Positions 1 through 21,300 of a DNA stretch of 39,976 bases are shown here, piece after piece. Where the stretch lies: positions 1 through 39,976 of the IMG/VR virus record IMGVR_UViG_3300043434_000338; one strand, given 5' to 3'. Both the position numbers and the translations under genes were made by a program. Source of the stretch: a virus. Under the pieces are notes generated by a model. It ran no database searches and was not told the origin of the DNA. It saw nothing but the letters and a program-made list of their open reading frames with translations. Position 1 is the stretch's first letter. Each line of letters starts with the position of its first letter.

Positions 1-2959
1 CACTTGTTCCTGATGTTCCTGATGTTCCTGAGGTACCGTTAGAACCTGGTGTTCCATTTATACCCGAAGAACCATTAGTACCCGAAGAACCACTTGTCCC
101 TGATGTTCCACTTGTCCCGTTAGAACCTGGCGTTCCATTTATACCAGAAGAACCACTTGTTCCTGAAGTTCCGCTAGTCCCTGATGTTCCAGCCTTACCT
201 GAAGTTCCACTTGAACCATTAGTGCCTGAAGTACCATTTACACCTGATGAGCCACTAGTTCCTGAAGAACCGTCAGTTCCATTTATACCGTCAACACCTG
301 AAGAACCTGAAGTTCCACTTGAACCATTTGTCCCTGATGAACCACTTGTTCCTGAAGAACCATTTGTTCCTGAAGTTCCGCTTGTTCCTGATGTACCAGC
401 CTTACCTGAAGTTCCACTTGAACCATTTGTCCCTGATGAACCACTTGTTCCTGATGTTCCATTTATTCCTGAAGAACCTGATGTACCACTAGTCCCTGAA
501 GAACCTGATGTACCACTTGTTCCTGATGTTCCATTTATTCCTGAAGAACCTGATGTACCACTAGTCCCTGAAGAACCTGATGTACCACTTGTTCCTGATG
601 TTCCGTTTATTCCTGAAGAACCGCTAGTTCCTGATGTACCACTTGTTCCTGACGTACCCGCTTTACCTGAAGTCCCACTTGAACCGTTAGTTCCTGAAGA
701 ACCATTTGTTCCACTAGTACCTGACGTACCTGAAGAACCATTAGTACCTGAAGAACCATTAGTTCCACTTGTTCCTGAAGAACCGTTAGTTCCACTTGTT
801 CCTGATACTCCTGACGAACCACTAGTTCCTGACGAACCGTTAGTGCCCGATGAACCACTTGTTCCTGAAGTTCCGCTAGTCCCTGATGTTCCAGATTTAC
901 CTGAAGTACCACTTGAACCGTCAGTACCCGATGAACCGCTAGTTCCTGAAGAACCATCAGTCCCATTTATACCATCAACCCCTGATGAACCTGAAGTACC
1001 ACTAGTTCCTGATACTCCTGACGAACCTGAAGTTCCACTTGAACCGTTTGTTCCTGAAGTTCCGCTAGTCCCTGAAGTTCCCGCTTTACCTGATGTTCCA
1101 CTAGAACCATTTGTTCCTGACGAACCACTTGTACCTGACGTACCACTCGAACCGCTAGTTCCCGAAGAACCGTTTGTTCCTGAAGTACCACTAGAACCAT
1201 TAGTTCCAGAAGTTCCACTTGTTCCTGATACACCCGATGAACCACTTGTTCCTGACGTACCACTCGAACCGTTGGTACCACTTGAACCACTAGTACCCGA
1301 AGAACCGTTTGTTCCTGAAGTACCACTCGAACCGTTAGTACCTGATGAACCTGAAGTTCCACTAGTACCTGACGAACCTGAAGTTCCGCTAGTACCTGAA
1401 GTACCATTTATACCTGATGAACCGCTAGTTCCTGAAGAACCATCCGTTCCATTTATACCATCCACACCTGAAGAACCATTAGTACCTGATGAACCACTAG
1501 TCCCTGAAGAACCGTTTGTTCCTGAAGTACCGCTAGTTCCTGAAGTTCCCGCTTTACCTGACGTACCGCTTGAACCATTTGTTCCTGATGAACCATTTGT
1601 TCCTGATGAACCATTTGTTCCACTTGAACCACTAGTACCTGAAGTTCCTGAAGTACCGCTAGAACCATTTGTACCTGATGTTCCACTAGAACCATTTGTA
1701 CCTGACGTACCGCTAGTTCCTGAAGTTCCACTAGTACCCGAAACTCCTGAAGAACCTGATGTCCCACTTGTTCCTGAAACCCCTGAAGAACCGCTAGTCC
1801 CTGAAGACCCCGATGTTCCACTAGAACCGTTTGTACCTGACGTACCACTCGAACCATTTGTTCCTGAAGTTCCACTAGTACCCGAAACTCCTGAAGAACC
1901 TGATGTCCCACTTGTTCCTGAAACCCCTGAAGAACCGTCAGTACCATTTATACCATCAACACCTGATGAACCTGAAGTTCCACTTGAACCATTTGTCCCT
2001 GAAGTACCACTTGTTCCTGAAGACCCGTTTGTCCCTGAAGAACCATTTGTACCTGATGTTCCACTTGTCCCTGAAGAACCATTAGTACCACTTGTCCCTG
2101 AAGAACCATTAGTACCCGAAGAACCTGAAGTTCCACTTGTTCCTGATGAACCTGAAGTCCCACTTGAACCATTTGTTCCTGATGTTCCACTAGAACCATT
2201 TGTTCCTGATGTTCCACTTGTTCCTGAAGAACCTGAAGTCCCACTTGAACCTGATGTTCCGCTAGTTCCTGACGAACCGTTAGTACCTGACGAACCACTT
2301 GTACCTGAAGTACCGCTAGTTCCCGACACACCTGAAGAACCCGAAGTTCCACTAGTCCCTGAAACACCACTCGTACCTGAAGTACCATTTATACCTGATG
2401 AACCGCTAGTTCCTGAAGAACCATCCGTTCCATTTATACCATCCACACCTGAAGAACCTGAGGTTCCACTTGAACCATTTGTTCCTGAAGTACCTGATGT
2501 ACCACTAGAACCATTCGTACCTGAAGTTCCGCTTGTTCCTGAAGACCCATTCGTTCCTGATGAACCTGAAGTCCCTGAAGTTCCGCTTGTTCCTGATACA
2601 CCTGAAGTTCCGCTTGTTCCTGACGAACCACTTGTACCTGATGAACCACTTGTTCCACTCGACCCGTTTGTACCTGAGGTTCCACTTGTTCCTGAAGTAC
2701 CATTAACACCTGAAGAACCACTTGTACCTGAAGAACCCGAAGTTCCTGAAGAACCACTTGTTCCCGATGTTCCGCTAGTACCCGATACTCCTGATGAACC
2801 TGAAGTACCACTAGAACCATTGGTACCACTAGAACCGTTAGTACCTGAAGTTCCACTTGTTCCTGAAGAACCTGATGTTCCTGAAGAACCACTCGCACCT
2901 GAAGTACCACTTGTTCCTGAAGAACCGCTAGTACCAGATGAGCCTGAAGTTCCACCACC
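1..2959 (-). repeat. Collagen-like block A (distal, Lys-bearing)
   Basis: About 329 Gly-X-Y triplets in 9-base units, dominated by GTS and GSS. Lysine triplets (GKA or GKS) occur at 191-199, 398-406, 659-667, 893-901, 1082-1090 and 1550-1558. GVDGINGTDG motifs begin at 278, 962, 1448, 1943 and 2429, with spacings of 684, 486, 495 and 486, all multiples of 9. Near the left edge, roughly 33-70 and 119-155, a proline-containing variant GINGTPGSNG appears twice. I saw no GES triplets here. Confidence 0.9.
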
Positions 2960-5900
2960 AACGATTAAATAAGCCGAGAAATAACTTGTTGACCTATTAG
3001 AACCACCCTCAAGATTTCTACTTGTTGGGTCTCCATTATAACCCGTAAATTCAACATAATCAGTAGTCCCATTAAAATAAATTATTTTATTATTACCTTG
3101 TGAAACACCTGCAGATGTTGTTGTTTGATTTTGCCAAATGAATGTTTGATTCCCATTTTTACGGATTTGTGAATTATATTGATTGTTCGCTACCGTAGCT
3201 GTTTGCCAAAAAACTTCAAGTGTCACATTGTAGTAACCCGCTATTGTTGGTGTAAATCTATAAGTTGATACATCCCACCAATTATTAGGGTCAAAATCAT
3301 CAATAAATTGAATTATAGTATCAACATTTGAAGGAATTGATTGATTTGTCGATAAATAACCTTGTACAACATAGTCAGATGCAACCAATCCCGTTGGTGA
3401 GGTACCACTTGAACCTGAAGTCCCTGAGGAACCTGACGTTCCACTTGTTCCTGAAGAACCATTAGTTCCCGAAGTACCACTTGTACCTGAAGAACCATTA
3501 GTTCCTGATGAACCACTAGTTCCCGCAGAACCTGAAGTCCCACTTGAACCGTCGGTTCCATTTATACCATCAACTCCCGATGAACCACTAGTTCCCGCAG
3601 AACCTGAAGTCCCACTTGAACCATTTGTCCCTGAAGTTCCACTCGTACCTGATGTACCGTCACCTCCTGATGCACCATCTAAATTTGTTTCCCAAGTACA
3701 GTAATTACCTGAACCGTCAATTTCAGTTATCTGTAATGTTAAAGAACCTGTAGACGGATTATATGAAATCACATCACCGTGAAAGTGATTTGAATTGTCG
3801 TACGCAACAATTAAATGTTGGGCAATAGTATATGATAAACCTACACTTGTAGTTATTGTTATGTTAGTACCAACAACTAATGTCGATAAATCAATACAAT
3901 CTGTTGAATTTCCTATATAATCGGCACTTACCCCAGATGAACCTGAAGTTCCCGATGAACCGCTGGTTCCTGATGTTCCGCTAGTTCCTGATGTTCCGCT
4001 CGAACCTGAAGTTCCTGAAGAACCACTTGTTCCTGAAGAACCTGATGTACCACTTGAACCATTAGTTCCTGAGGTTCCACTTGTTCCTGAAGACCCACTT
4101 GTTCCTGAAGACCCATCAGTACCGCTTGAACCGCTAGTTCCACTCGAACCATCCGTTCCATTTATACCATCAACACCAGATGAACCACTTGTTCCCGCAG
4201 AACCTGATTCACCGCTAGTACCTGAAGAACCGTTTGTTCCTGACGTACCACTAGTACCTGAAGAACCACTTGTTCCTGAAGTACCACTTGAACCGTCAGT
4301 TCCCGAAGAGCCGCTTGTCCCACTCGAACCATCTGTCCCTGAAGTACCACTAGTACCTGAAGAACCATTTGTACCACTTGAACCGCTAGTCCCACTTGAA
4401 CCATTTGTTCCTGACGTACCGCTAGTTCCACTTGACCCATCAGTTCCTGAAGAACCGCTAACACCCGAAGAACCATCTGTACCATTTATACCATCAACAC
4501 CAGAAGAACCGCTAGTCCCACTCGAACCTGATTCTCCCGACGAACCTGAAGTCCCTGAAGAACCGTCAGTCCCTGAAGTACCACTTGACCCATCAGTTCC
4601 TGATGTACCACTTTCTCCAGAAGAACCATCAGTACCCGAAGAACCTGATGTCCCACTAGAACCGTCAGTTCCTGATGAACCACTTGTCCCTGAAGAACCA
4701 TTAGTACCTGAAGTACCTGAAGAACCACTTGTTCCAGCAGAACCTGATTCTCCTGACGAACCTGATGTTCCTGAAGAACCGTCAGTCCCATTTATACCAT
4801 CAACGCCTGAAGACCCTGAAGTCCCCGATGTTCCACTCTCTCCTGAAGAACCACTTGTTCCGCTTGAACCTGAAGTCCCTGATGTACCGCTCGAACCTGA
4901 AGTTCCTGAAGAACCGCTTGTTCCACTTGAACCTGAAGTTCCTGATGTACCTGAAGTTCCTGAAGTGCCACTAGTACCTGAAGAACCATTTGTCCCTGAA
5001 GTACCACTTGTTCCAGATGTACCTGAAGAACCGTTTGTTCCTGAAGTACCACTAGTTCCCGATTCTCCCGATGAACCGCTAGTTCCTGAAGAACCATCCG
5101 TTCCATTTATACCGTCAACTCCTGAAGAGCCACTTGTTCCTGATGTACCTGATTCTCCGCTACTTCCCGAAGTACCGCTTGAACCATCAGTACCATTAAC
5201 TCCACTTAATCCTGAAGAACCGCTAGTACCCGATGTACCACTTTCACCTGAAGTCCCTGAAGAACCACTAGTCCCCGAAGAACCATTTGTTCCTGAAGAA
5301 CCATTTGTTCCTGAAGAACCATTTGTTCCTGAAGTTCCTGATGTTCCACTAGTTCCCGATTCTCCTGATGAACCTGATGTTCCTGAAGAACCATCCGTTC
5401 CATTTATACCGTCAACTCCTGAAGACCCACTCGTTCCAGATGAACCTGATTCTCCACTACTTCCCGAAGTACCTGATGAACCGTTAACACCTGATGAACC
5501 GCTAGTCCCCGAAGAACCGTCAGTACCTGAAGAACCATTTGTACCAGATGAACCATCAGTACCCGATGAACCATCAGTACCTGAAGTACCGCTTGAACCT
5601 GATGTTCCTGAAGAACCGTTAGTTCCCGAAGTACCACTTGTACCTGAAGAACCATTAGTACCTGAAGTACCACTAATACCTGATGAACCTGATGTTCCAC
5701 TTGAACCATCTGTTCCATTTATACCATCAACACCTGAAGACCCTGAAGTCCCTGATGTACCACTTTCTCCCGATGAACCCGATGTTCCTGATGAACCGTC
5801 AATACCTGATGTTCCTGATGAACCGTCAATACCTGATGTTCCTGATGAACCGTCAATACCTGATGTTCCTGAAGTACCTGAAATACCACTAGTACCCGAC

Positions 5901-6949
5901 GTACCACTTGAACCTGAAGTCCCTGAAGAACCGTTAGTCCCTGAAGTACCACTTGTCCCTGAAGTACCACTTGTCCCTGAAGAACCATCCGTCCCTGAAG
6001 AACCATCCGTCCCTGACGTTCCTGAAATACCACTAGTTCCCGATGAACCTGAAGTTCCCGATGTACCGCTCGAACCATTTGTACCTGAAGTTCCACTTGA
6101 ACCTGAAGTTCCTGAAGAACCACTAGTACCTGATGAACCATTAATCCCCGACGAACCTGATGTCCCTGAAGAACCACTAGTACCTGATGTACCTGAATTA
6201 GTCGCAGTAATACCCGTTATTATAATGGTATCACCAATATTATTATATAAATGAATCTCAGATGATGCAGAAAAATAAGTACCACCCGTAACATTTATGT
6301 CAGTCATTCCTGTAATACTAACTGTATTACCTGAATTATCGTATAATTCAATATAGTTGTTGATACCCGAAGCACCTGTAAAGAAAGTTCCTCCCGTGAT
6401 GTAGGTATCATTTAAATCGGCTATTCTCCAACGAGCGTCGTTATGAGTAACACCTCCAACGCCTTCAATAGTTGACGCAGTCCAAGCGTTAAGGAATAAC
6501 TCTCCTTGGGGGGTGTCATTAAAACACATATAACCTGTCGAGACTTCCGTTAGAGAGCCCGCGGTTTCCGCATTGTTAAAAAGTGTAGTATAATCAGGTA
6601 TTACATATTGATATGTTAAATCAGTTTCGTGAACATAAACTAACATACCCAATCTTCTTCTACCTGAAGATATACCGTCATTATATAATCTTATTTCATT
6701 AGATGTTCCATATGGGACATTATAACTGAAATTAATTGGGATACTATTACCTGAATACTCAACGGCACCACCATTAATTAAAACGTCATTAGGTATTGTC
6801 CAAATTAAATCTGAAAGGTTGTAAACTTCCATATATCCACCGATACTGTCTACACTGAAATTAGTACCTTCAACGTTAGCTCTATCTACGGATATTGGAC
6901 CGAAAACAACATTAGCAGAAACTGGATTTTTATAATCAAAACTCATCAT
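1..6949 (-). CDS. Giant collagen-like tail fibre protein, 3' end outside the window
   Basis: An uninterrupted minus-strand frame runs from an ATG-ATG pair at 6949/6946 to the left edge, at least 2316 codons with no stop seen. I translated the N-terminal 250 residues and both non-repeat insertions. Repeat landmarks spread along the gene all fall in one register, so I see no frameshift. Residues 1-250 form a non-repeat head with two similar beta-type units (ITGGTFF... and VTGGTYF..., each followed by a LYxNxG segment), probably the attachment or trimerisation part. The rest is about 610 Gly-X-Y triplets, mostly GTS and GSS, interrupted twice by small folded modules. Collagen-like Gly-Ser/Thr-Ser shafts are known in phage fibres, where they form long trimeric rods. 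It starts 13 bases after the preceding gene and is probably co-transcribed. The C-terminal receptor-binding tip is not visible. Phage collagen-like fibre is secure; the exact position on the virion is inferred. Confidence 0.9.
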   Translation of the reverse strand, partial: MMSFDYKNPVSANVVFGPISVDRANVEGTNFSVDSIGGYMEVYNLSDLIWTIPNDVLINGGAVEYSGNSIPINFSYNVPYGTSNEIRLYNDGISSGRRRLGMLVYVHETDLTYQYVIPDYTTLFNNAETAGSLTEVSTGYMCFNDTPQGELFLNAWTASTIEGVGGVTHNDARWRIADLNDTYITGGTFFTGASGINNYIELYDNSGNTVSITGMTDINVTGGTYFSASSEIHLYNNIGDTIIITGITATNSGTSGTSGSSGTSGSSGINGSSGTSGSSGTSGSSGTSGTNGSSGTSGTSGSSGTSGISGTSGTDGSSGTDGSSGTSGTSGTSGTSGTNGSSGTSGSSGTSGTSGISGTSGTSGIDGSSGTSGIDGSSGTSGIDGSSGTSGSSGESGTSGTSGSSGVDGINGTDGSSGTSGSSGISGTSGTNGSSGTSGTSGTNGSSGTSGSSGTSGTDGSSGTDGSSGTNGSSGTDGSSGTSGSSGVNGSSGTSGSSGESGSSGTSGSSGVDGINGTDGSSGTSGSSGESGTSGTSGTSGTNGSSGTNGSSGTNGSSGTSGSSGTSGESGTSGTSGSSGLSGVNGTDGSSGTSGSSGESGTSGTSGSSGVDGINGTDGSSGTSGSSGESGTSGTSGTNGSSGTSGTSGTSGTNGSSGTSGTSGTSGTSGTSGSSGTSGSSGTSGSSGTSGTSGSSGTSGSSGESGTSGTSGSSGVDGINGTDGSSGTSGSSGESGSAGTSGSSGTSGTNGSSGTSGSSGTDGSSGTSGSSGTDGSSGESGTSGTDGSSGTSGTDGSSGTSGSSGESGSSGTSGSSGVDGINGTDGSSGVSGSSGTDGSSGTSGTSGTNGSSGTSGSSGTNGSSGTSGTSGTDGSSGTSGSSGTDGSSGTSGTSGSSGTSGTSGTNGSSGTSGESGSAGTSGSSGVDGINGTDGSSGTSGSSGTDGSSGTSGSSGTSGTSGTNGSSGTSGSSGTSGSSGTSGSSGTSGTSGTSGTSGSSGTSGSSGVSADYIGNSTDCIDLSTLVVGTNITITTSVGLSYTIAQHLIVAYDNSNHFHGDVISYNPSTGSLTLQITEIDGSGNYCTWETNLDGASGGDGTSGTSGTSGTNGSSGTSGSAGTSGSSGVDGINGTDGSSGTSGSAGTSGSSGTNGSSGTSGTSGTNGSSGTSGTSGSSGTSGSSGTSPTGLVASDYVVQGYLSTNQSIPSNVDTIIQFIDDFDPNNWWDVSTYRFTPTIAGYYNVTLEVFWQTATVANNQYNSQIRKNGNQTFIWQNQTTTSAGVSQGNNKIIYFNGTTDYVEFTGYNGDPTSRNLEGGSNRSTSYFSAYLIVGGGTSGSSGTSGSSGTSGTSGASGSSGTSGSSGTSGTSGTNGSSGTNGSSGTSGSSGVSGTSGTSGTSGSSGTSGSSGTSGSSGVNGTSGTSGTSGTNGSSGTSGSSGTSGSSGTSGTSGVSGTSGTSGTSGSSGTNGSSGTSGTSGTNGSSGTSGTSGTNGSSGTSGSSGVDGINGTDGSSGTSGSSGINGTSGTSGVSGTSGTSGSSGVSGTSGTSGTSGSSGTNGSSGTSGTSGSSGTSGSSGTSGTSGTNGSSGTSGTNGSSGTSGSSGTSGTSGSSGTNGSSGTSGTNGSSGTSGTSGTNGSSGTNGSSGTSGTSGTNGSSGTSGSSGVDGINGTDGSSGVSGTSGTSGSSGVSGTSGTSGTNGSSGTSGTNGSSGTSGSSGTSGSSGVSGTSGTSGSSGVSGTSGTSGTSGTSGTNGSSGTSGTNGSSGTSGTSGTSGSSGTNGSSGTNGSSGTNGSSGTSGKAGTSGTSGTSGTNGSSGTSGSSGTNGSSGVDGINGTDGSSGTSGSSGINGTSGTSGTSGSSGTSGTSGSSGTNGSSGTSGTNGSSGTSGSSGTNGSSGTSGTSGSSGVSGTSGTSGTNGSSGTSGTNGSSGTSGSSGTSGTSGSSGTNGSSGTSGKAGTSGTSGTSGTNGSSGTSGSSGVSGTSGTSGSSGVDGINGTDGSSGTSGSSGTDGSSGTSGKSGTSGTSGTSGTSGSSGTNGSSGTSGSSGVSGTSGTNGSSGTSGTNGSSGTNGSSGTSGTSGTNGSSGTNGSSGTSGKAGTSGTSGTSGTSGSSGINGTSGTSGTSGSSGTSGTSGSSGINGTSGTSGTSGSSGTSGTSGSSGINGTSGTSGSSGTNGSSGTSGKAGTSGTSGTSGTNGSSGTSGSSGTNGSSGTSGSSGVDGINGTDGSSGTSGSSGVNGTSGTNGSSGTSGKAGTSGTSGTSGTSGSSGINGTPGSNGTSGTSGTSGSSGTNGSSGINGTPGSNGTSGTSGTSGTS
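2960..3403 (-). other. Non-collagen module between shaft blocks A and B
   Basis: About 148 residues of ordinary, non-repeat sequence inside the fibre frame. The translated stretch includes VVQGYLSTNQSI, a WWDV segment, AGYYNVTLEVFWQ and FNGTTDYVEFTGYNGD, ending in GGGTSG where the collagen repeats resume. The alternating hydrophobic pattern and aromatic residues suggest a small beta-sandwich domain, probably a branch or kink point in the shaft. No family is recognised with confidence. Confidence 0.7.
3404..3675 (-). repeat. Collagen-like block B (short)
   Basis: About 30 Gly-X-Y triplets between the two folded modules, with one GVDGINGTDG motif starting at 3557. It contains GTAG-type and GSS/GTS triplets and runs out through GASGGDGTSG, the usual boundary of the neighbouring module. 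Confidence 0.85.
3676..3931 (-). other. Non-collagen module between shaft blocks B and C
   Basis: About 85 residues reading SADYIGNSTDCIDL, TITTSVGLSYTIAQHL, VAYDNSNHFHGDVISY, NPSTGSLTLQITEI, then GSGNYCTWETNLDGASG. As I recall, modules with this FxGxVxSYNPxTGxL pattern followed by a WxxNLDGASG exit into collagen repeats occur in other phage fibre proteins. It is probably a small beta domain that caps and re-registers the collagen trimer. Two cysteines are present. Confidence 0.7.
3932..6193 (-). repeat. Collagen-like block C (proximal, Glu-bearing)
   Basis: About 251 Gly-X-Y triplets following the N-terminal head. GVDGINGTDG motifs begin at 4157, 4481, 4787, 5102, 5399 and 5714, with spacings of 324, 306, 315, 297 and 315, all multiples of 9. 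Acidic GES triplets recur between about 4200 and 5770 (near 4205, 4530, 4617, 4747, 4839, 5060, 5152, 5229, 5357, 5448 and 5763). The lysine triplets of block A are not seen here. Confidence 0.9.
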
Positions 6950-6962
6950 ATTATTAAATATC

Positions 6963-7898
6963 TTACGGTATTAAACTTCCTCCTCGGAAATATAAATTAT
7001 TATTAAAATTCTTTATTTTAAAGTCACCAATTGTATATGTCGAATACACTCTATAAGTACCTGCAGGTATTGCAGTACCTGTATAATTAACAATGAAACT
7101 AGAGTATGTACTATTCATAGTAAAGTAAGTTAAAGAACCTGGGCTATTTGATTCACCAATTGTCGCATATTTTTGTCCATTTGTCGCCCCTGTTGGAACA
7201 AACCAAGTATACCAACAAGACTCATTAGGGTCCATAACTGTATTAGGGACTTCGTGAGTTAAGAATCTATACGCAACTATTGGATTACCTTCAGAATCGA
7301 ATCCTCCCGAAGATGTTGGTACTTGTTCACTTCTAATTGATGGTACACCTAAACTACCCCATCCTGTATAATTTAAGTAAGCATTCATCTGATTATTAAA
7401 TGTTGATGAGGCAACCGAAGGGGAATTAATATTATAACCTCTAAACGCACTTCCTTGAGATACCATCCAAGTGTTAAATGAAGTTCTTGCACTATATGGT
7501 TCAATAGTTAAATAAGCGTAGAATGAAGGTGTTGCGGTTGGTGTCGGTGTTGGTGTTTGAGTCGGAGTTTGGGTCGGTGTTGGTGTTGGAGTCGGAGTAC
7601 CTGTAGGTTCTGGTGTTGGAGTTGGTGGTGGAGTTGCAGTAGGTGTTGGAGTTGCGGTAGGTGTAGGGGTAGGTGTAGGTTCGGTACAAGGTGCGATTAT
7701 AAATGTTTCACAATTAAGTGAGTCAATAACTTTAATCATAACCGCAGGGGCACTATTATACATTGCAGGTAAAACCACAGTATACGGCATTGTTGTTGTG
7801 GACCCAACATAGCTACAACTAGCACCAAGCACATTACACACATATACTTGATATGGTGATGTTCCTGTTATACTTGTAATAGTTATTGATGACCCCAC
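6963..7898 (-). CDS. Thr/Pro-linker virion protein with SprB-like N-terminal module
   Basis: 311 residues starting at GTG 7898, the only start available because an in-frame TAA lies two codons upstream. Residues 1-72 (ITSITGTSPYQVYVC then SLNC) resemble a truncated SprB-type beta repeat like those of the upstream gene. Residues 73-124 are a Thr-Pro-rich linker. Residues 125-311 form a distinct domain of unknown fold, rich in Tyr, Ser and Asn, containing EVPNTVMDPNESCWYTWF and IPAGTYRVYSTYTIGDF. The architecture suggests an adhesin or fibre-tip subunit. It lies between the SprB-repeat fibre gene and the collagen fibre gene, with a candidate promoter motif 36 bases upstream. Function in host binding is inferred from position and architecture only. 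Confidence 0.75.
   Translation of the reverse strand: MGSSITITSITGTSPYQVYVCNVLGASCSYVGSTTTMPYTVVLPAMYNSAPAVMIKVIDSLNCETFIIAPCTEPTPTPTPTATPTPTATPPPTPTPEPTGTPTPTPTPTQTPTQTPTPTPTATPSFYAYLTIEPYSARTSFNTWMVSQGSAFRGYNINSPSVASSTFNNQMNAYLNYTGWGSLGVPSIRSEQVPTSSGGFDSEGNPIVAYRFLTHEVPNTVMDPNESCWYTWFVPTGATNGQKYATIGESNSPGSLTYFTMNSTYSSFIVNYTGTAIPAGTYRVYSTYTIGDFKIKNFNNNLYFRGGSLIP
7527..7682 (-). repeat. Thr-Pro-rich linker repeat
   Basis: 52 residues of [18 protein letters not shown] low-complexity sequence (residues 73-124 of the host gene), built from 6-base units. It is probably an extended flexible spacer between two folded domains. Confidence 0.9.
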
Positions 7899-8029: not shown

Positions 8030-10663
8030 TTAAATACAACATTGTACAGGTATTGTTGACCCACAAGTAGCCGCAGTTACATTGTATTGTTCAGGGCCAT
8101 TTGTTAATGATAAAACTTGGTAAGCACAAGTAACACAAGGAACTCTGTCTAAATTAACAAATTCTCCAATACTTAACTGATTTATATATCTAACTACATA
8201 AACATCACCACCAATTGCCCCTGTTTCACAATCAATAACCTCTTGAACGTTGTAATAGTAATATGTTTCCGTTGGTGTAGGTGTTTGAGTTGGAGTTGTC
8301 GTAGGTGTTGGGGTCGGTGTTTGAGTTGGAGTTGCCGTAGGTGTTTGAGTCGGTGTTGGACTCGGTGTAGGTGTTGGAGTTACCGTAGGAGTTTGAGTTG
8401 GTGTAGGAGTTTGAGTTGGCGTAGGTGTTTGAGTCGGCGTTGGAGTTACCGTAGGAGTTTGAGTCGGTATAGGAGTTTGAGTCGGTGTTGGGGTTTGAGT
8501 TGGCGTAGGTGTTGGCGTAGGTGTTGAGTAATCGTCACAACAGAATCCATAATCTATCATTAATCTAATTATAACGTCCTTATCCGATAAGGCCTTTAAA
8601 CAATCAGTACTTAACTGAATTGTATTTGATTCGGTATTAATTATGATAGAACCAATACCAGGTATACTATCTAATAGATTTCGTAACGCGGTAACGTATT
8701 GGGTATCTGTTGGGTAATCCAAAATTCCAACTGAATTATAAAATTCACTAGTATAACCTGTACCCCCAACATCTAACAATATAGTAAATGTTGCGGCGGT
8801 TAATGAACATCCCGTTTCTCCCGAAGTTAGAACTTCATAACCATCATTTAACATTTGTCTTAAACCTTGTTCAGTACCACTATTCTCAATAAATTCACTA
8901 TCACAGACATTAAATAATGAATATGTCGAATTATTAGAACTACAACTTACTGAAATTGTCTTGTTTGCAACACATCCGTCAGAATCGGTTAAAATTAAAC
9001 TATACGTTCCCGCAGTCAATCCCGTTATAAACATACCCGTTTGAGAACCAACATTTGAGGACCAACCAAAAGTATATGGTGGTTTACCTCCTGTAATTAA
9101 GGCAGTAACTGTACCCTCATTACCGTTCCCACAAGAAGTACTAGTTAAAGTAAACGCGGTCTTGGTCGATGATGGAATAATAAAACTTGTTTTTATTGTA
9201 CACGATTCACTATCAGGGTCCGCATCACTAACTAATGCGTTATAAAAACCTGCAGGTAGATTGGTAAATGTTGCCGTTTGGCTTGTACTATTTGCAATTA
9301 TTTGACTACCGACCTGGTAGGTGTAAATACCTGGAGTGTCCACATAAACAGTAACCGACCCATTTTGATTTCCACAGGTAGTTGCAATTGGGTTCACGTT
9401 AACCGCATATGGTTGTACGTTCTCAATAACCACTGTTTTAGTGTAAGTACAAATCCCACCCTGAGTTGTCATTGTTACGGTATAAGTACCTGAACTTAAA
9501 TTATTAAAAACCGCACTAGGAGATGTGTTCTGAGTATTAAGTACAGTACCGTTAGAATCTAATAATTCAAAAATATATGGCGTTTGTCCACCCCCACCTG
9601 ATATAGTTATTGACCCACTACCGTTTGAACAGGTTGAGTTTTTAACAACTACGTTAGTTGATGTGAATGAGTTAGGTGTTAAAATAGTAGTACTACCTGA
9701 AACAACACATAGTGATGCGTCTGTAACTATAACGGTGTATGTCCCCGCAACTAAGTTATTATATGTATAAGTTCTACTTCCATCAATATCATTTTCACCA
9801 TTTGAAAATTGATAATAAAATGGTGGTGTACCACCAGATAAATTAACAATAATTTGTCCATTATTATCAAAACAAGTTGGGGATGTGTTAACAAAGTTAA
9901 TAATCCCTAATCTAGTTGCCGCGGATACCACAACACTTTTAGTTATTGAACAATTATTGGCATCTGTAACAGTAACGGAATACGACCCACCTGACAAACC
10001 TGTTAATGAGGGTTGATTTATCGGGCTACTACTCCACTGATATGTGTAAGGAGAGGTACCAGTTAAACCTGTCACATATATCGCACCAGTATTACCTTGG
10101 GTACACGCGGAATCATCAATAGTATATAAACCAAATGTGAATTTACCTGAATCAGTAATAACACAAGTGCCTGTAGAACCTGAACAACCACCATCGTCTG
10201 TGGCAATAACATAATAAATACCCGATGGTAATGAATCAAAAATTTGAACGTCATCAGCAATTGAAGTACTGATAAGGGTACTATTTAATCCCGACAACTG
10301 ATATAAGTCGTAAGTTACTGGATAATTTTGTGTTGTAGCAGTTACGGATAACATACCATTACTTCCTTCACAACTCGCTTCAGTTACTGTCTCTAAACTA
10401 AGACATAGTCCTGTCGAAATCCAAAGATTTACATAAATCTCATCATTTGGCGGGGTATTTGAGTCATTTATTCTTATTTGATATAAACCTCCACTAAGTC
10501 CTGTTCTAGTTGAGTCGTCACCATCGTACACTAAAGTATCAACACCTAAATTTGGGTTATACCAATCGATAGTATATGGTTCGACACCGTCAATAGGGAA
10601 TATTTGGATTGAACCATCACCCAAACCATTACAGTCCCCATTTACAATTGCATTATAAAACAT
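8030..10663 (-). CDS. Fibre/adhesin protein with tandem SprB-type repeats
   Basis: 877 residues. About seven tandem beta repeats of 75-95 residues fill roughly residues 1-570. Each has an early Cys, a [15 protein letters not shown] segment, then LxxGxYxVxVTDxxxC. This is the SprB repeat pattern known from the Flavobacterium gliding adhesin SprB and other Bacteroidota surface proteins. Next come a unique domain with Cys pairs, an 88-residue Thr-Pro-rich linker (about residues 713-800) and a 77-residue Cys-rich C-terminus with CVTC and QCCI. The ATG at 10663 overlaps the preceding stop codon as TAATG. No signal peptide is visible, consistent with a virion protein and not a secreted one. It is probably a tail fibre that contacts the host surface. 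The repeat assignment is by pattern; binding function is inferred. Confidence 0.82.
8264..8528 (-). repeat. Thr-Pro-rich linker repeat
   Basis: About 88 residues of [14 protein letters not shown] and TPSPTP units separating the unique domain from the Cys-rich C-terminus. The same kind of linker occurs in the next gene at 7527-7682, so the two proteins share modular design. Confidence 0.9.
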
Positions 10664-16527: not shown

Positions 16528-18316
16528 CTATATCTGGGTCTGAAATTGCATATAATTGTTCAGGGACATTTCCTTCAGGAAATAATCTGAATATTATTTT
16601 TCTTGATGGATAATGAGAGCCATTTAAGAATGGGTAATCCACACCCAATCCATTACCATCTATATAACCATAAGTATATAAGTCTCTCCATCTTAACGTT
16701 TGATAGTATTCTGAGAAGTACGCATAATCAGGAACTCCTTCTATCGTTTTAACGTCCCCCTCTTCAATATAATCAGAATACACTTTTAGTGTAATCGAAT
16801 TATGTGGTTGGTAATAATACCCTGGAGGGTTATTAGGACTACACGAAAAATTAAATGGGTCAGCATTTAAAATACATCCGACTTTAAATAAATTATCATT
16901 AAAAACAATCTTATGATATAGAGGTGATATAACTCTTTCTTTTTGTTCGAATCGATTAAACTCACAATAATCCCCATCAATAATATCACCTTCTTTTAAG
17001 TCATTGTTATAATAAAAATTGAAGGTATTACTACCAATAGTTTTACTATACGTACCTGTACTAATATTGGTTTTATTTCTTGATTTATTTGACGCTGCCC
17101 AATATGGGTTAACGTCTGATGTGATATTAAACCCAAATCCTTCTCGAATAGCGGGAAAATTTGGCACACTAGTATCGAGTGGCTTATTCATCCACCCAAA
17201 ATATCCTTTATTTATAATTGTTATGAATAATTCACTTAATGGTCTATTCTGATTATCAACATAAGGTGCAATGTTAATGTCTTTACTAAAAGAAATTAAA
17301 TACGATTGATTACCTTCTTTTTGAGTAATTCTCGCGGTATGGTCAGGGGTTAATGAACTATATTCGTACTGTCTGACGTTATCAAAAGGATTGTATTCAA
17401 ATCCCGCTTTAGTTAATATAGTATCACTTACATTTGTAAGTATTCTATGTTTTCTAACATAATATTCTGATTTAGTTTCACCTGAGTTATAAATGTCGAC
17501 TATTCTTTTAAAAGTACCTTTAGTATCATTTGTAAATGTAACACCAGTAAATCCGTAATTATAAAGATTAAAAATATATTCACCCGAACCAAACCCTGAT
17601 TGACCTAAAGAATAAACTTGGAAAACCTTACTACCTCCATATCCCAACCATCCAGGGATGTTTATTTCAACATATTCCCCTTCAGATAGATTGTGTTTAA
17701 CGGGACAGACAAATGAAATTAAATCTTGCCCTGACTCGGTGTATGGGTTTTGAATATAAAAAGGAATACCATCACCAGCAGCCCATCCATTAGTCCCACC
17801 ATCCTCTTCATAATACTCTAATCTTTTAGTATAATCGTTTTGATATGCGTAACTAATATATTGGGTCCAATTATATGTTGTCGCACTTTTATTTACAAAA
17901 TATATGTGTGGTTGAACCGTACCTGATGTTGTAGTATATCCTGGAACTTTGTTATCGGTTCGTATAAAATCAAATTCGTTATATAGTGGATACCCTGTCC
18001 ACATAGTGGTATTAAATGAACTTAGTTGATTGGCGTAGTACATATTATACGTGAACGGTTTATAGTCAAGTAAACCAGTACTTCCACTATACACGTTATA
18101 AAACATAAAATCCATATTAGCACTAAGTCTAAAAGTGGATGACGCCTGTCTTTCGTCGTCAAACACTTGAGCTAAACTGATTCGATTATTCCTATCAAAC
18201 TCATCAATTTCTTTTTGAGTATTTTCCAGAGGTACTTTAATACCTAAATCCGTATCAATTGCGGTCTTATATCTTTTAGACCCTAATACTATTCTTGTTT
18301 CAATTTGATTACTCAT
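16514..18316 (-). CDS. Unrecognised virion protein (600 aa)
   Basis: 600 residues starting MSNQIETRIVLGSKRYKTAI. The N-terminal 60 residues look helical and charged; the rest is rich in Tyr, Asn, Gly and Phe, typical of beta-structured tail proteins. A segment at about residues 215-240 (HNLSEGEYVEINIPGWLGYG) resembles the short SH3-like or OB-like modules of tail spikes, but this is only an impression. There is no signal peptide or membrane helix. It overlaps the preceding 1630-residue gene by 8 bases and the following gene by 14 bases. A structural role in the baseplate or its fibres is inferred from the operon. Confidence 0.7.
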   Translation of the reverse strand: MSNQIETRIVLGSKRYKTAIDTDLGIKVPLENTQKEIDEFDRNNRISLAQVFDDERQASSTFRLSANMDFMFYNVYSGSTGLLDYKPFTYNMYYANQLSSFNTTMWTGYPLYNEFDFIRTDNKVPGYTTTSGTVQPHIYFVNKSATTYNWTQYISYAYQNDYTKRLEYYEEDGGTNGWAAGDGIPFYIQNPYTESGQDLISFVCPVKHNLSEGEYVEINIPGWLGYGGSKVFQVYSLGQSGFGSGEYIFNLYNYGFTGVTFTNDTKGTFKRIVDIYNSGETKSEYYVRKHRILTNVSDTILTKAGFEYNPFDNVRQYEYSSLTPDHTARITQKEGNQSYLISFSKDINIAPYVDNQNRPLSELFITIINKGYFGWMNKPLDTSVPNFPAIREGFGFNITSDVNPYWAASNKSRNKTNISTGTYSKTIGSNTFNFYYNNDLKEGDIIDGDYCEFNRFEQKERVISPLYHKIVFNDNLFKVGCILNADPFNFSCSPNNPPGYYYQPHNSITLKVYSDYIEEGDVKTIEGVPDYAYFSEYYQTLRWRDLYTYGYIDGNGLGVDYPFLNGSHYPSRKIIFRLFPEGNVPEQLYAISDPDIDDCE

Positions 18317-21300
18317 TTAAACCTGTAGTTCCTAAGAACTTATTTGAAAATCTGTTTATGGCAGTATTACCTTTTCTTAATCCAAAATAGAAATACCAAG
18401 GAGCACCTCCTAATATAGTCTTACCTTGAATTGTTGGTGCCGAATAATTGTAAGTTATTGACGCCATATCATTCGAATTACTTGCAAATAAATAACCACG
18501 AGCGTTATATTCATTAACCGAAGCGTTCCATACAGGATATGGACTACCAGGTATTTGTGTTGGTAATCTATCCATTTGTTGATACTTAACCGCCACAATA
18601 CTCGAAGGGTCAGGAGATGTAGCCCAATTATTAGTTTGTGTACCAAAGATTGTGTTACCCGAATTTAATCTCCACATATAATGAGGTGTAAGTTGTGATT
18701 TAGTTGAGGTATAATCGTAAGCAAAATCATTAGTTAATGGGTTCCATCTAATTGTTCTAACAGGTGAGATAAAATCTCTAACTTGTATTGATTCCGTACT
18801 TGAGGTAAACATAATACCCATCATAATACTATTTGAACTAGTCCCCGCCGCGATTACAGACGCCCCTCCAGGGGATGAAGGTGATGTAGTATAAAAGGAT
18901 GTGTCCAACGGAACCACACCAATTTGGGAGTTAACCGCCACTGATTGTGCGAAATCAGCATCAACCTTTCTACCACTTCTTGAAAATAATCGAGTAATTT
19001 GGTTACCAAAGAAGTTAGCTAAGAAACTAGAATCAAGTAATCTCATAATACCAAATAGATTAACCATATCTGAAGTATCATTATATGAAGTTTCAGAGAA
19101 CTCTTTCATATTATACCCATCAAATTGACCGTTTAAAATAATCTCTTTCATAAATGAATCTCTAGGTCCTAAATTAATAAGAGTTGTTGGGTATTTTAAA
19201 TTAGTATCATTAGCTCCTTTACCATCATCCCCTCTTGATTTAAATCCAATAAAGTTACTACCATCCCAAGGTGTACTTCTATAATAAAACGTATTTGTTG
19301 TTGGGTGTAGGAAAATAATATCTCGACAATACTCCCGACCATTAACTTTATTCTTACTATTATAATAGGTATTAATTTTGAACGGATATGCAAATAATAC
19401 ACCGTTAATCCAATTATTATTAAAGACCTGACTTAAAACTCCTTGACATAATGCAAAGAAGAACTTGAATCTAAGGATATATTCCCCAAAATTTTCAAGG
19501 TCTTTACCCATTCCAGCAATTGGCCCGAAAATATCATTAATGTCACCACAACGAGGACAAAAACGATAACAACCGTTATCAGTCACCGCATCATCGTTCT
19601 TACACGCAGGGTCAACAGTGATATTTAAACCACTGGTACCCTGGTCGTAACATTTTAATGAAACCATTTTAGTACAAGTAAATGTATTTAAAGCACTATT
19701 ACTTTCAAACGCGTTGTCATTAGGTTCAAATGTGTCAGCATACGACGCGTTTGATTGTCCAGCACCTGCAACAATAATACCATTAGTCGAGAAGGTATAT
19801 ACGGTCAACGCAGGATTTTGTTGTAAGAAATAGGTGTTATTACCATTAGTTGTTTGAAAATCAGAAGTAGGTAATCTATCACTTCTCATAACATTATTCT
19901 TATAATAAGACATACTTAAAGTACTACCCGTATTATACCCTGGACTATAATAATATGATTTTAAATTGTTAGGGTATGATGTTGATGGGGTAAACACATA
20001 CGCTCCTCCGTCAACAAATTCACTAGGGTTATATTTTCTTGGGGTTAGTGTACCACTATACAAAGCCTGACTTGATAACGATTTAAGTAAACGTCTAGGT
20101 GATGATATTGTATTATCAATCTTAGATGGGCTCAAAACCGTAGCTGGTGGTGATGGTACAAATACCGACGGAATCACTTTAGTATTATCTAAACTAGAAT
20201 AAAACGTATGAGTATTAGTCGTGTACCCCGTATAATAATATGACGATGAATTTGCGGGTTCAAAGAATTGAGAACTAAAATATAAATCAAATCCATTGTT
20301 AGGAGTGTTGTTATTCATACCAGGACCAAAATCGTGGTCAAACATATTCAACGGTGATGATGATGCAGGTAGCGTCGAATTCTTAATTGGAACGTTAACT
20401 TTATAATCCCCGATAACTAAACAATCTGGTTGGTTAATTGATGTGTACCCAAAAACTCGACTCAGGTCAAATTTAGTTTGAACACTAAATGAATTAGGGT
20501 CAACACCTCTTTGGATTATTAATACCTTACTGTCTTGTGATATAAAATCAATAGGTGTCACAGTTACCGTGTCACTAAAAATTCCCGTAAAACTAGTAAT
20601 AGTTGAAGTACTTTCAATAATATCCCCAAAACTATTCGCGAAACGAGTTGCAGGTACTAAACTTCTAAACTGAGCAATGGTCATTCCCGTTATTACTTGG
20701 AAATACTCAATATCTGACGGATATGTGTAATATATTGTTTTACTAACATTAGTGTTATACATAGTAGGTGTCGAATATGAAAATGGTATATTCGACAATG
20801 GGTTAGTCGGACTTGCGTAAGTACCACTTAACGTAGTTGGTATTGTCGTAGTACCCGTTAACTGAGTACTTCCAATACTATTAACCGTTGCACCTGTAAA
20901 GTTAGGGTCTTTAGATGAATATGGACTTGAAAATGAGAACATCTTACCCGCACTAAGGGTAGTCGCTTTACTAACTAAAATCGCAATTACATTATCAAAA
21001 TGTCCCGCAGTAGGACCGTTAGAAGTTGGTTCGTATGTCACTTTCACCTGATTAGCACCATTGTAGTAAGAACCTTTAGTATTAAATAAATTAATCCTCT
21101 CACCAAACGGTAAATCATAACATTCCATAAAACCTGAAGAAGTATTTATTCTCCCGACACCTCCCGCAGTCATATTGGTACCATTAACAAATGTACCCCC
21201 TAATAATTGTTTGATAATAGGGACATCTGATGGTGACCAAAAAAGTGTATTACTGAAAATATTATTAAATACCGATGGGTTGTCCAACTTACCAAAGGCA

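Follow-up and report, generated by a model that had tools for sequence, protein, structure and literature searches.

Phage collagen-like fibres are already known, and their Gly-X-Y shafts are usually treated as featureless spacers. EPclA and EPclB, encoded by prophages of E. coli O157, are trimeric collagen-like proteins that have been proposed to be side-tail fibres (PMC3368898). The fibre described here resembles them in being phage-encoded and in having a Gly-X-Y shaft flanked by an N-terminal virion domain and a C-terminal domain. The collagen stretches listed for EPclA and EPclB, which accompany PCoil and PfC domains, have tens of triplets or fewer (PMC3368898), whereas our fibre has about 640 triplets, rich in GTS and GSS, and differs further in its C1q-fold insert, its anchor and a charge gradient along the shaft. 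In the 735-kb uncultured phage LR756501, a GTS shaft of 778 triplets likewise passes from acid to base, on a different anchor and in a much larger genome. The novelty lies in the length-dependent, one-way charge gradient, of which we found no description in the literature searched.

The window, meaning the whole stretch of DNA analysed (39,976 bases), is a complete IMG/VR virus record. Its long open reading frames lie nearly all on the minus strand and include ribonucleotide reductase, a DnaB-like helicase, a UvsX-like recombinase, a single-strand binding protein and baseplate wedge proteins. Because of this gene content, we take the window to be a fragment of a T4-like myovirus. A host in Bacteroidota is plausible, given the SprB repeats in a protein encoded beside the fibre and the published link between Far-T4 phages and aquatic Bacteroidetes (PMC7198788). 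The fibre open reading frame (6949..2, minus strand) starts with ATG and is open at the record end. It matches the Pfam Collagen family (PF01391, E=6e-247) and contains 611 triplets in long uninterrupted Gly-X-Y repeats, the mark of collagen-like tail or side fibres, so that it almost certainly encodes a phage fibre. The features of the gene and its neighbours are as follows:

6194..6949, minus strand: N-terminal domain of 252 aa, the presumed virion anchor, with the motif DGISSGRRRLGMLVYVHETD; common to at least 80 IMG/VR loci at 43-100% identity.
3926..6193, minus strand: shaft block C (proximal), 252 triplets with 11 GES, 29 Asp and no Lys or Arg, from translation, counting and PF01391.
3677..3925, minus strand: small non-collagen insert of 83 aa that breaks the G-X-Y pattern; no Pfam family above cut-off.
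3398..3676, minus strand: shaft block B, 31 triplets with 3 Asp and no Glu or Lys, from translation and counting.
2954..3397, minus strand: C1q-fold domain within the shaft, 148 aa, a likely trimerisation or hinge module, from AF2 and Foldseek, with 27 relatives.
2..2953, minus strand: shaft block A (distal), 328 triplets in the window with 5 GKA, 1 GKS, 11 Asp and no Glu; it runs past the window end.
6963..7898, minus strand: 311-aa protein with Thr-Pro repeats, upstream of the fibre gene (phrog_15511); relatives in 74 loci, adjoining the N-terminal domain.
8030..10663, minus strand: 877-aa protein with SprB repeats and a Hoc-like and Thr-Pro region (PF13573, E=3e-25; phrog_2973); relatives in 90 loci.

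Our best explanation is that the gene encodes, for a T4-like phage, a trimeric collagen-like fibre of very great length, composed of an anchor, three Gly-X-Y blocks, a small domain, a C1q-fold domain and a C-terminal tip; taken jointly with the polarised-tether function proposed below, we give this explanation just short of even confidence. Like gp34-gp37 of T4, it is a very long multi-domain fibre gene (or genes) near baseplate genes; the T4 fibres are not collagen-like, and no family match of our fibre to gp34-gp37 was found. The two Thr-Pro repeat proteins (6963-7898 and 8030-10663) form a conserved cluster with the collagen-like fibre gene across 74-90 related loci. Two plus-strand open frames, 3-2972 (989 aa) and 4965-6254 (429 aa), run antisense to the G-X-Y repeats; they are not likely to be genes and look like a codon artefact of the repeat.

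In the IMG/VR loci the N-terminal domain usually runs straight into a G-X-Y shaft. Its AF2 model (pLDDT 72) had no fold match in the PDB, and the domain was found neither in bacterial genomes nor in named phages; the tip likewise had no relative in named phages, and the two presumed end modules, anchor and tip, matched no family or fold. The insert in the shaft scores below the gathering threshold of the C1q domain family PF00386 (14 bits against a cut-off of 23.7, E=0.059). Its AF2 model (pLDDT 91) has a jelly-roll matching C1q/TNF structures: Foldseek aligned it with C1QL3 (E=3.5e-9, TM 0.73-0.86), and the collagen X NC1 trimer was also matched. Both of these members of the C1q/TNF superfamily join a collagen-like repeat to a C1q-fold domain, as our fibre does, whereas here the fold lies inside the shaft, below the Pfam cut-off and at about 19% identity. 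The modelled C1q fold supports a trimer.

Relatives of this insert were found in 27 loci (L093-L119), nearly all of them embedded in G-X-Y repeats of varied kinds (GTS, GPT, GAT, GPQ). In L096 the insert is 94% identical and the surrounding shaft differs in sequence and charge. The flanking modules are therefore far more stable than the shaft sequence. The C1q-fold module (2954-3397 in the window; L093-L119) recurs across very different shafts, as a mobile domain would, and scores under the Pfam threshold for C1q.

A first-pass annotation, made from the sequence alone, had described about 610 triplets, nearly all GTS or GSS, with Glu triplets proximal, Lys triplets distal and GVDGINGTDG motifs throughout. 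Translation and counting of the three blocks bore this out. GTS and GSS make up 72% of the 611 triplets, and GVDGINGTDG occurs in 12 copies, present in all blocks. Block C is the N-terminal one; the 11 GES triplets are confined to its positions 5770-4213, and the five GKA and one GKS to positions 1558-199 of block A. Block C has no Lys or Arg and block A no Glu. The zoning of Glu and Lys thus stood, and the charge description needed correction in that Asp supplies most of the negative charge (29 in C, 3 in B, 11 in A) and block A is still net -5 within the window, being net positive only in its last part. Per 100 triplets, net charge is about -16 over the first two fifths of the shaft and +2 over the last fifth. 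The distribution of Glu by block is far from even (Fisher p=9e-5), that of Lys less so (p=0.04, or p=0.02 with the full gene), and the placement of all Glu ahead of all Lys has p=1.3e-5 with exchangeable triplets and 0.005 counting whole repeat units. The distal Lys residues are scattered over about 200 triplets, with no tight cluster.

The zonation of the window, taken alone, would be an ordinary outcome of repeat turnover. Local tandem duplication would enrich each stretch in its own triplet variants, and the direction of the pattern would be chance. Several observations agree with such neutral zonation: uncharged rare triplets (GTN, GVS, GTP, GSN) are zoned too, segregation of Glu from Lys is no stronger than that of uncharged pairs in 14 clusters (p=0.15), and copy-number variants separate the near-identical phages L011 and L010. 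Against it, synonymous-codon sharing between GES contexts (0.42-0.46) is near the value expected from codon usage (0.40-0.41) and no higher than in other similar windows (0.48), which means that most of these contexts did not arise by recent copying. On these grounds we rejected recent duplication as a full account of the zoning. Across 1-6193 the repeats persist at the amino-acid level although synonymous codons are near random, leaving a DNA repeat much weaker than the protein repeat, which may limit repeat loss through recombination.

The first-pass annotation had also proposed that the segregated charges could set chain register. Charged triplets stabilise collagen helices in general, and interchain salt bridges might accordingly fix register or stabilise the triple helix. 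In the window shaft, however, Lys and Glu both occupy X (Asp occupies Y) and are never near each other, their zones lying more than 280 triplets apart. The axial K/R-G-D/E pair is absent here and from the L011 shaft, and L309 and L280 alone contain it among the long shafts listed. Salt bridges are thus unlikely to set the register; the canonical axial-motif version of the idea is effectively refuted, and we give the idea as a whole very little credence.

The whole gene could be read in three near-identical relatives, L009, L010 and L011 (2578, 2578 and 2617 aa). Their distal block has 351-364 triplets with 8 Lys and is followed by a C-terminal tip of about 190 aa; two more GKA than in the window lie near the end of this last block. 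The full genes keep the pattern, and Lys in block C or Glu in block A, either of which would have contradicted it, was seen neither in the window nor in these relatives. Shaft length is not fixed even among close phages, as L011 has 13 additional triplets around the GINGTPGSNG repeats. The GKS site of the window, L010 and L011 is GKA in L009, which means that Lys is conserved while the neighbouring residue changes.

Beyond this clade the exact pattern fades. In the 81 loci that share the N-terminal domain, the charge is usually Asp, and Glu occurs in some; Lys is restricted to the window clade and L044 (one GPK), and L055 and L088 have one Arg each, in a set where most shafts are cut by contig ends and distal charge may escape notice. 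We rejected conservation of the exact pattern across this family, since the relatives, most of them with truncated shafts, are nearly without Lys or Arg. L013 and L081, with the same anchor, have Asp only or hardly any charge, from which it follows that polarity is not essential to the family.

We then compared the direction of charge in long phage collagen shafts generally. IMG/VR was scanned for short G-X-Y patterns with Lys or Glu, in an order-neutral way, and two named phage records, one of 735 kb, were added, giving about 300 distinct viral collagen-like shafts in all. Shafts went into one conservative cluster when their flanking domains shared 50% identity or more over 50 aa, or their DNA 85% or more over 400 bases. 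With a cut-off of 500 triplets, which was chosen post hoc with the data already seen, and with the window clade left out, net charge increases towards the C terminus in all 24 charged shafts and in 11 of 11 conservative clusters (p=0.001). A circular-shift null, in which shafts are rotated and reversed and local zonation is retained, gave p<0.0001 with one shaft per cluster. At this length Asp and Glu are proximal in 11 of 11 strict and 20 of 20 medium clusters, and Lys or Arg distal in 7 of 7 strict and 12 of 13 medium clusters. Uncharged residues have no comparable bias, alanine coming nearest in the strict set (p=0.07).

The effect depends on length: none at 150-250 triplets (11 versus 11), weak at 250-500 and complete at 500 or more. 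Over all lengths, flank clusters with acid before base number 21 against 10 (p=0.07), a weak excess, and those with Glu before Lys or Arg 18 against 7 (p=0.04). In binned counts, Glu or Asp falls and Lys climbs along L159, L200, L177, L188, L210, L123 and L225; three of these (L188, L200, L210) pass from net negative to net positive. L244, L331, L277 and L344 start acidic and fade to neutral without becoming basic. The anchors of polar shafts L011, L100, L123/L188, L200, L225, L390 and L186 are unlike in sequence.

Fresh data were less uniform. The first fresh set, at 400 or more triplets, gave three shafts for the rule and one against, L355 (694 triplets), which is opposite by acid/base order; its net charge still climbs, the first fifth having -2.9 and the last -1.4 per 100 triplets, order and net-charge slope being different measures of which L355 fails the former. 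A fresh GSS-type scan yielded only shafts of at most 313 triplets, and these had no polarity. The bacterial control provided a single long Lys-bearing shaft (L451), without polarity (0.47). Basic residues come first in L355, L335, L221, L181 and L105; these shafts are mostly short, and among long ones the clearest exception in acid/base order is L355.

A directional charge rule in very long phage collagen shafts is, in our assessment, very probably real. The polarity, for which the first reading could name no described phage fibre, is not unique to the window fibre; compared with related phage fibres, the direction recurs in long shafts and the exact pattern is lost in close homologues, mostly truncated. 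Because the direction recurs on different anchors, the charge order is probably meaningful, and the polarity of the window fibre is real and probably not chance. Neutral zonation predicts random direction, which the 24 of 24 shafts and 11 of 11 clusters contradict; it is already disfavoured, and we consider it quite improbable.

Two other accounts of the gradient can be weighed on the same shafts. It might reflect a mutational or base-composition gradient without selection on charge, as Glu to Lys and Asp to Asn are both G-to-A changes, and in the window GTD drops and GTN climbs from block C to block A. In an earlier shaft set, however, Gly third base, AGY serine and Thr third-base purine had no directional bias (p>=0.17), and Asn, which also seemed biased in the all-length sign test, was not significant either; this account is very improbable. 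Alternatively, an acidic proximal and a basic distal fibre gene may have been joined, in which case the gradient would be left over from two-part fibres of the gp34-gp37 kind. Immediately downstream of the fibre gene, L009-L011 do encode a second collagen-like protein with a net positive shaft. Yet the downstream gene is the more positive in only 22 of 35 adjacent collagen gene pairs (p=0.18), and the gradients of L159, L200 and L177 are graded rather than two-step, which makes fusion quite unlikely. Old shared ancestry of the shaft, moved onto different anchors by recombination, is a further consideration, as saturated codons may hide kinship between clusters; even then, the gradient would still have been maintained.

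The explanation we prefer, tentatively and at somewhat less than even confidence, is that the gradient turns the fibre into an electrostatically polarised tether. Repulsion between the acidic root and the cell, nearby fibres and the acidic surfaces of the virion itself would make the fibre stand off. Until the tip meets its receptor, the neutral-to-basic far end would exert a weak, non-specific pull towards polyanionic surface polymers (LPS, capsule, exopolysaccharide). Repeats would lengthen and shorten by local duplication, with selection on charge maintaining direction. Binding of polyanions by a basic collagen shaft has a precedent in the collagen-like domain of MSR1/SR-A, whose lysine clusters are reported to bind polyanionic ligands (PMC9618966). 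In both proteins a basic stretch belongs to a trimeric collagen shaft, which makes MSR1/SR-A a candidate functional analogue, with no claim of homology; MSR1/SR-A is an animal receptor with reported binding, whereas by this analogy the distal shaft of our fibre may bind polyanions. Counted against the tether are the same-anchor homologues with Asp only or nearly no charge, L013 and L081, and the many long shafts that never become basic.

These observations also bear on fold-back or lateral packing, in which acidic proximal and basic distal halves would pair, within one fibre or between neighbours, and hold the fibres retracted on tail or capsid until triggered. Opposite charges do lie on opposite halves, with non-collagen domains between them as possible hinges, and the gradients of L188, L200 and L210, crossing from net negative to net positive, would suit such pairing. 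L244, L331 and L277, however, have an acidic half and no basic half, and most shafts could not zip in this manner; we regard packing as unlikely. As a general rule, a virion-to-tip rise in net charge kept by selection amid repeat turnover, which orients the fibre and promotes capture of polyanionic cell surfaces, is in our estimate evenly balanced between right and wrong.

That the direction recurs suggests that a design rule is at work, not chance. A one-way gradient found on different anchors, and only in the longest shafts, suggests a role of the shaft in adsorption or fibre packing. It would provide a sequence rule for which end of a fibre meets the cell, a testable physical model of surface search by very long fibres and a natural template for polar collagen materials.

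The region beyond the fibre gene in the relatives adds some minor observations. In L009-L011 the fibre gene is followed immediately by the second collagen-like gene (17891-19735, plus strand, in L011; 17774-19528, plus strand, in L010) and then, on the other strand, by an oxygenase gene. The second collagen-like protein is proline-richer (GINGTPGSNG, GPTGSPGPPG), has GKA and GRA triplets in its net positive shaft, and varies in length among these near-identical phages. The oxygenase, at 19563-20084 on the minus strand of L010 and cut there by the contig end, belongs to the 2OG-Fe(II) family (phrog_61, PF13640), with weak PDB similarity to PKHD-type and prolyl 4-hydroxylases. Against the initial statement that the fibre has no hydroxyproline-type proline support, its GTS/GSS-rich, proline-poor shaft does have two GTP triplets in the window and six in the full L011 shaft, and this oxygenase lies near the genes in relatives. 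As it adjoins the proline-richer collagen-like gene, proline hydroxylation of phage collagens is conceivable.
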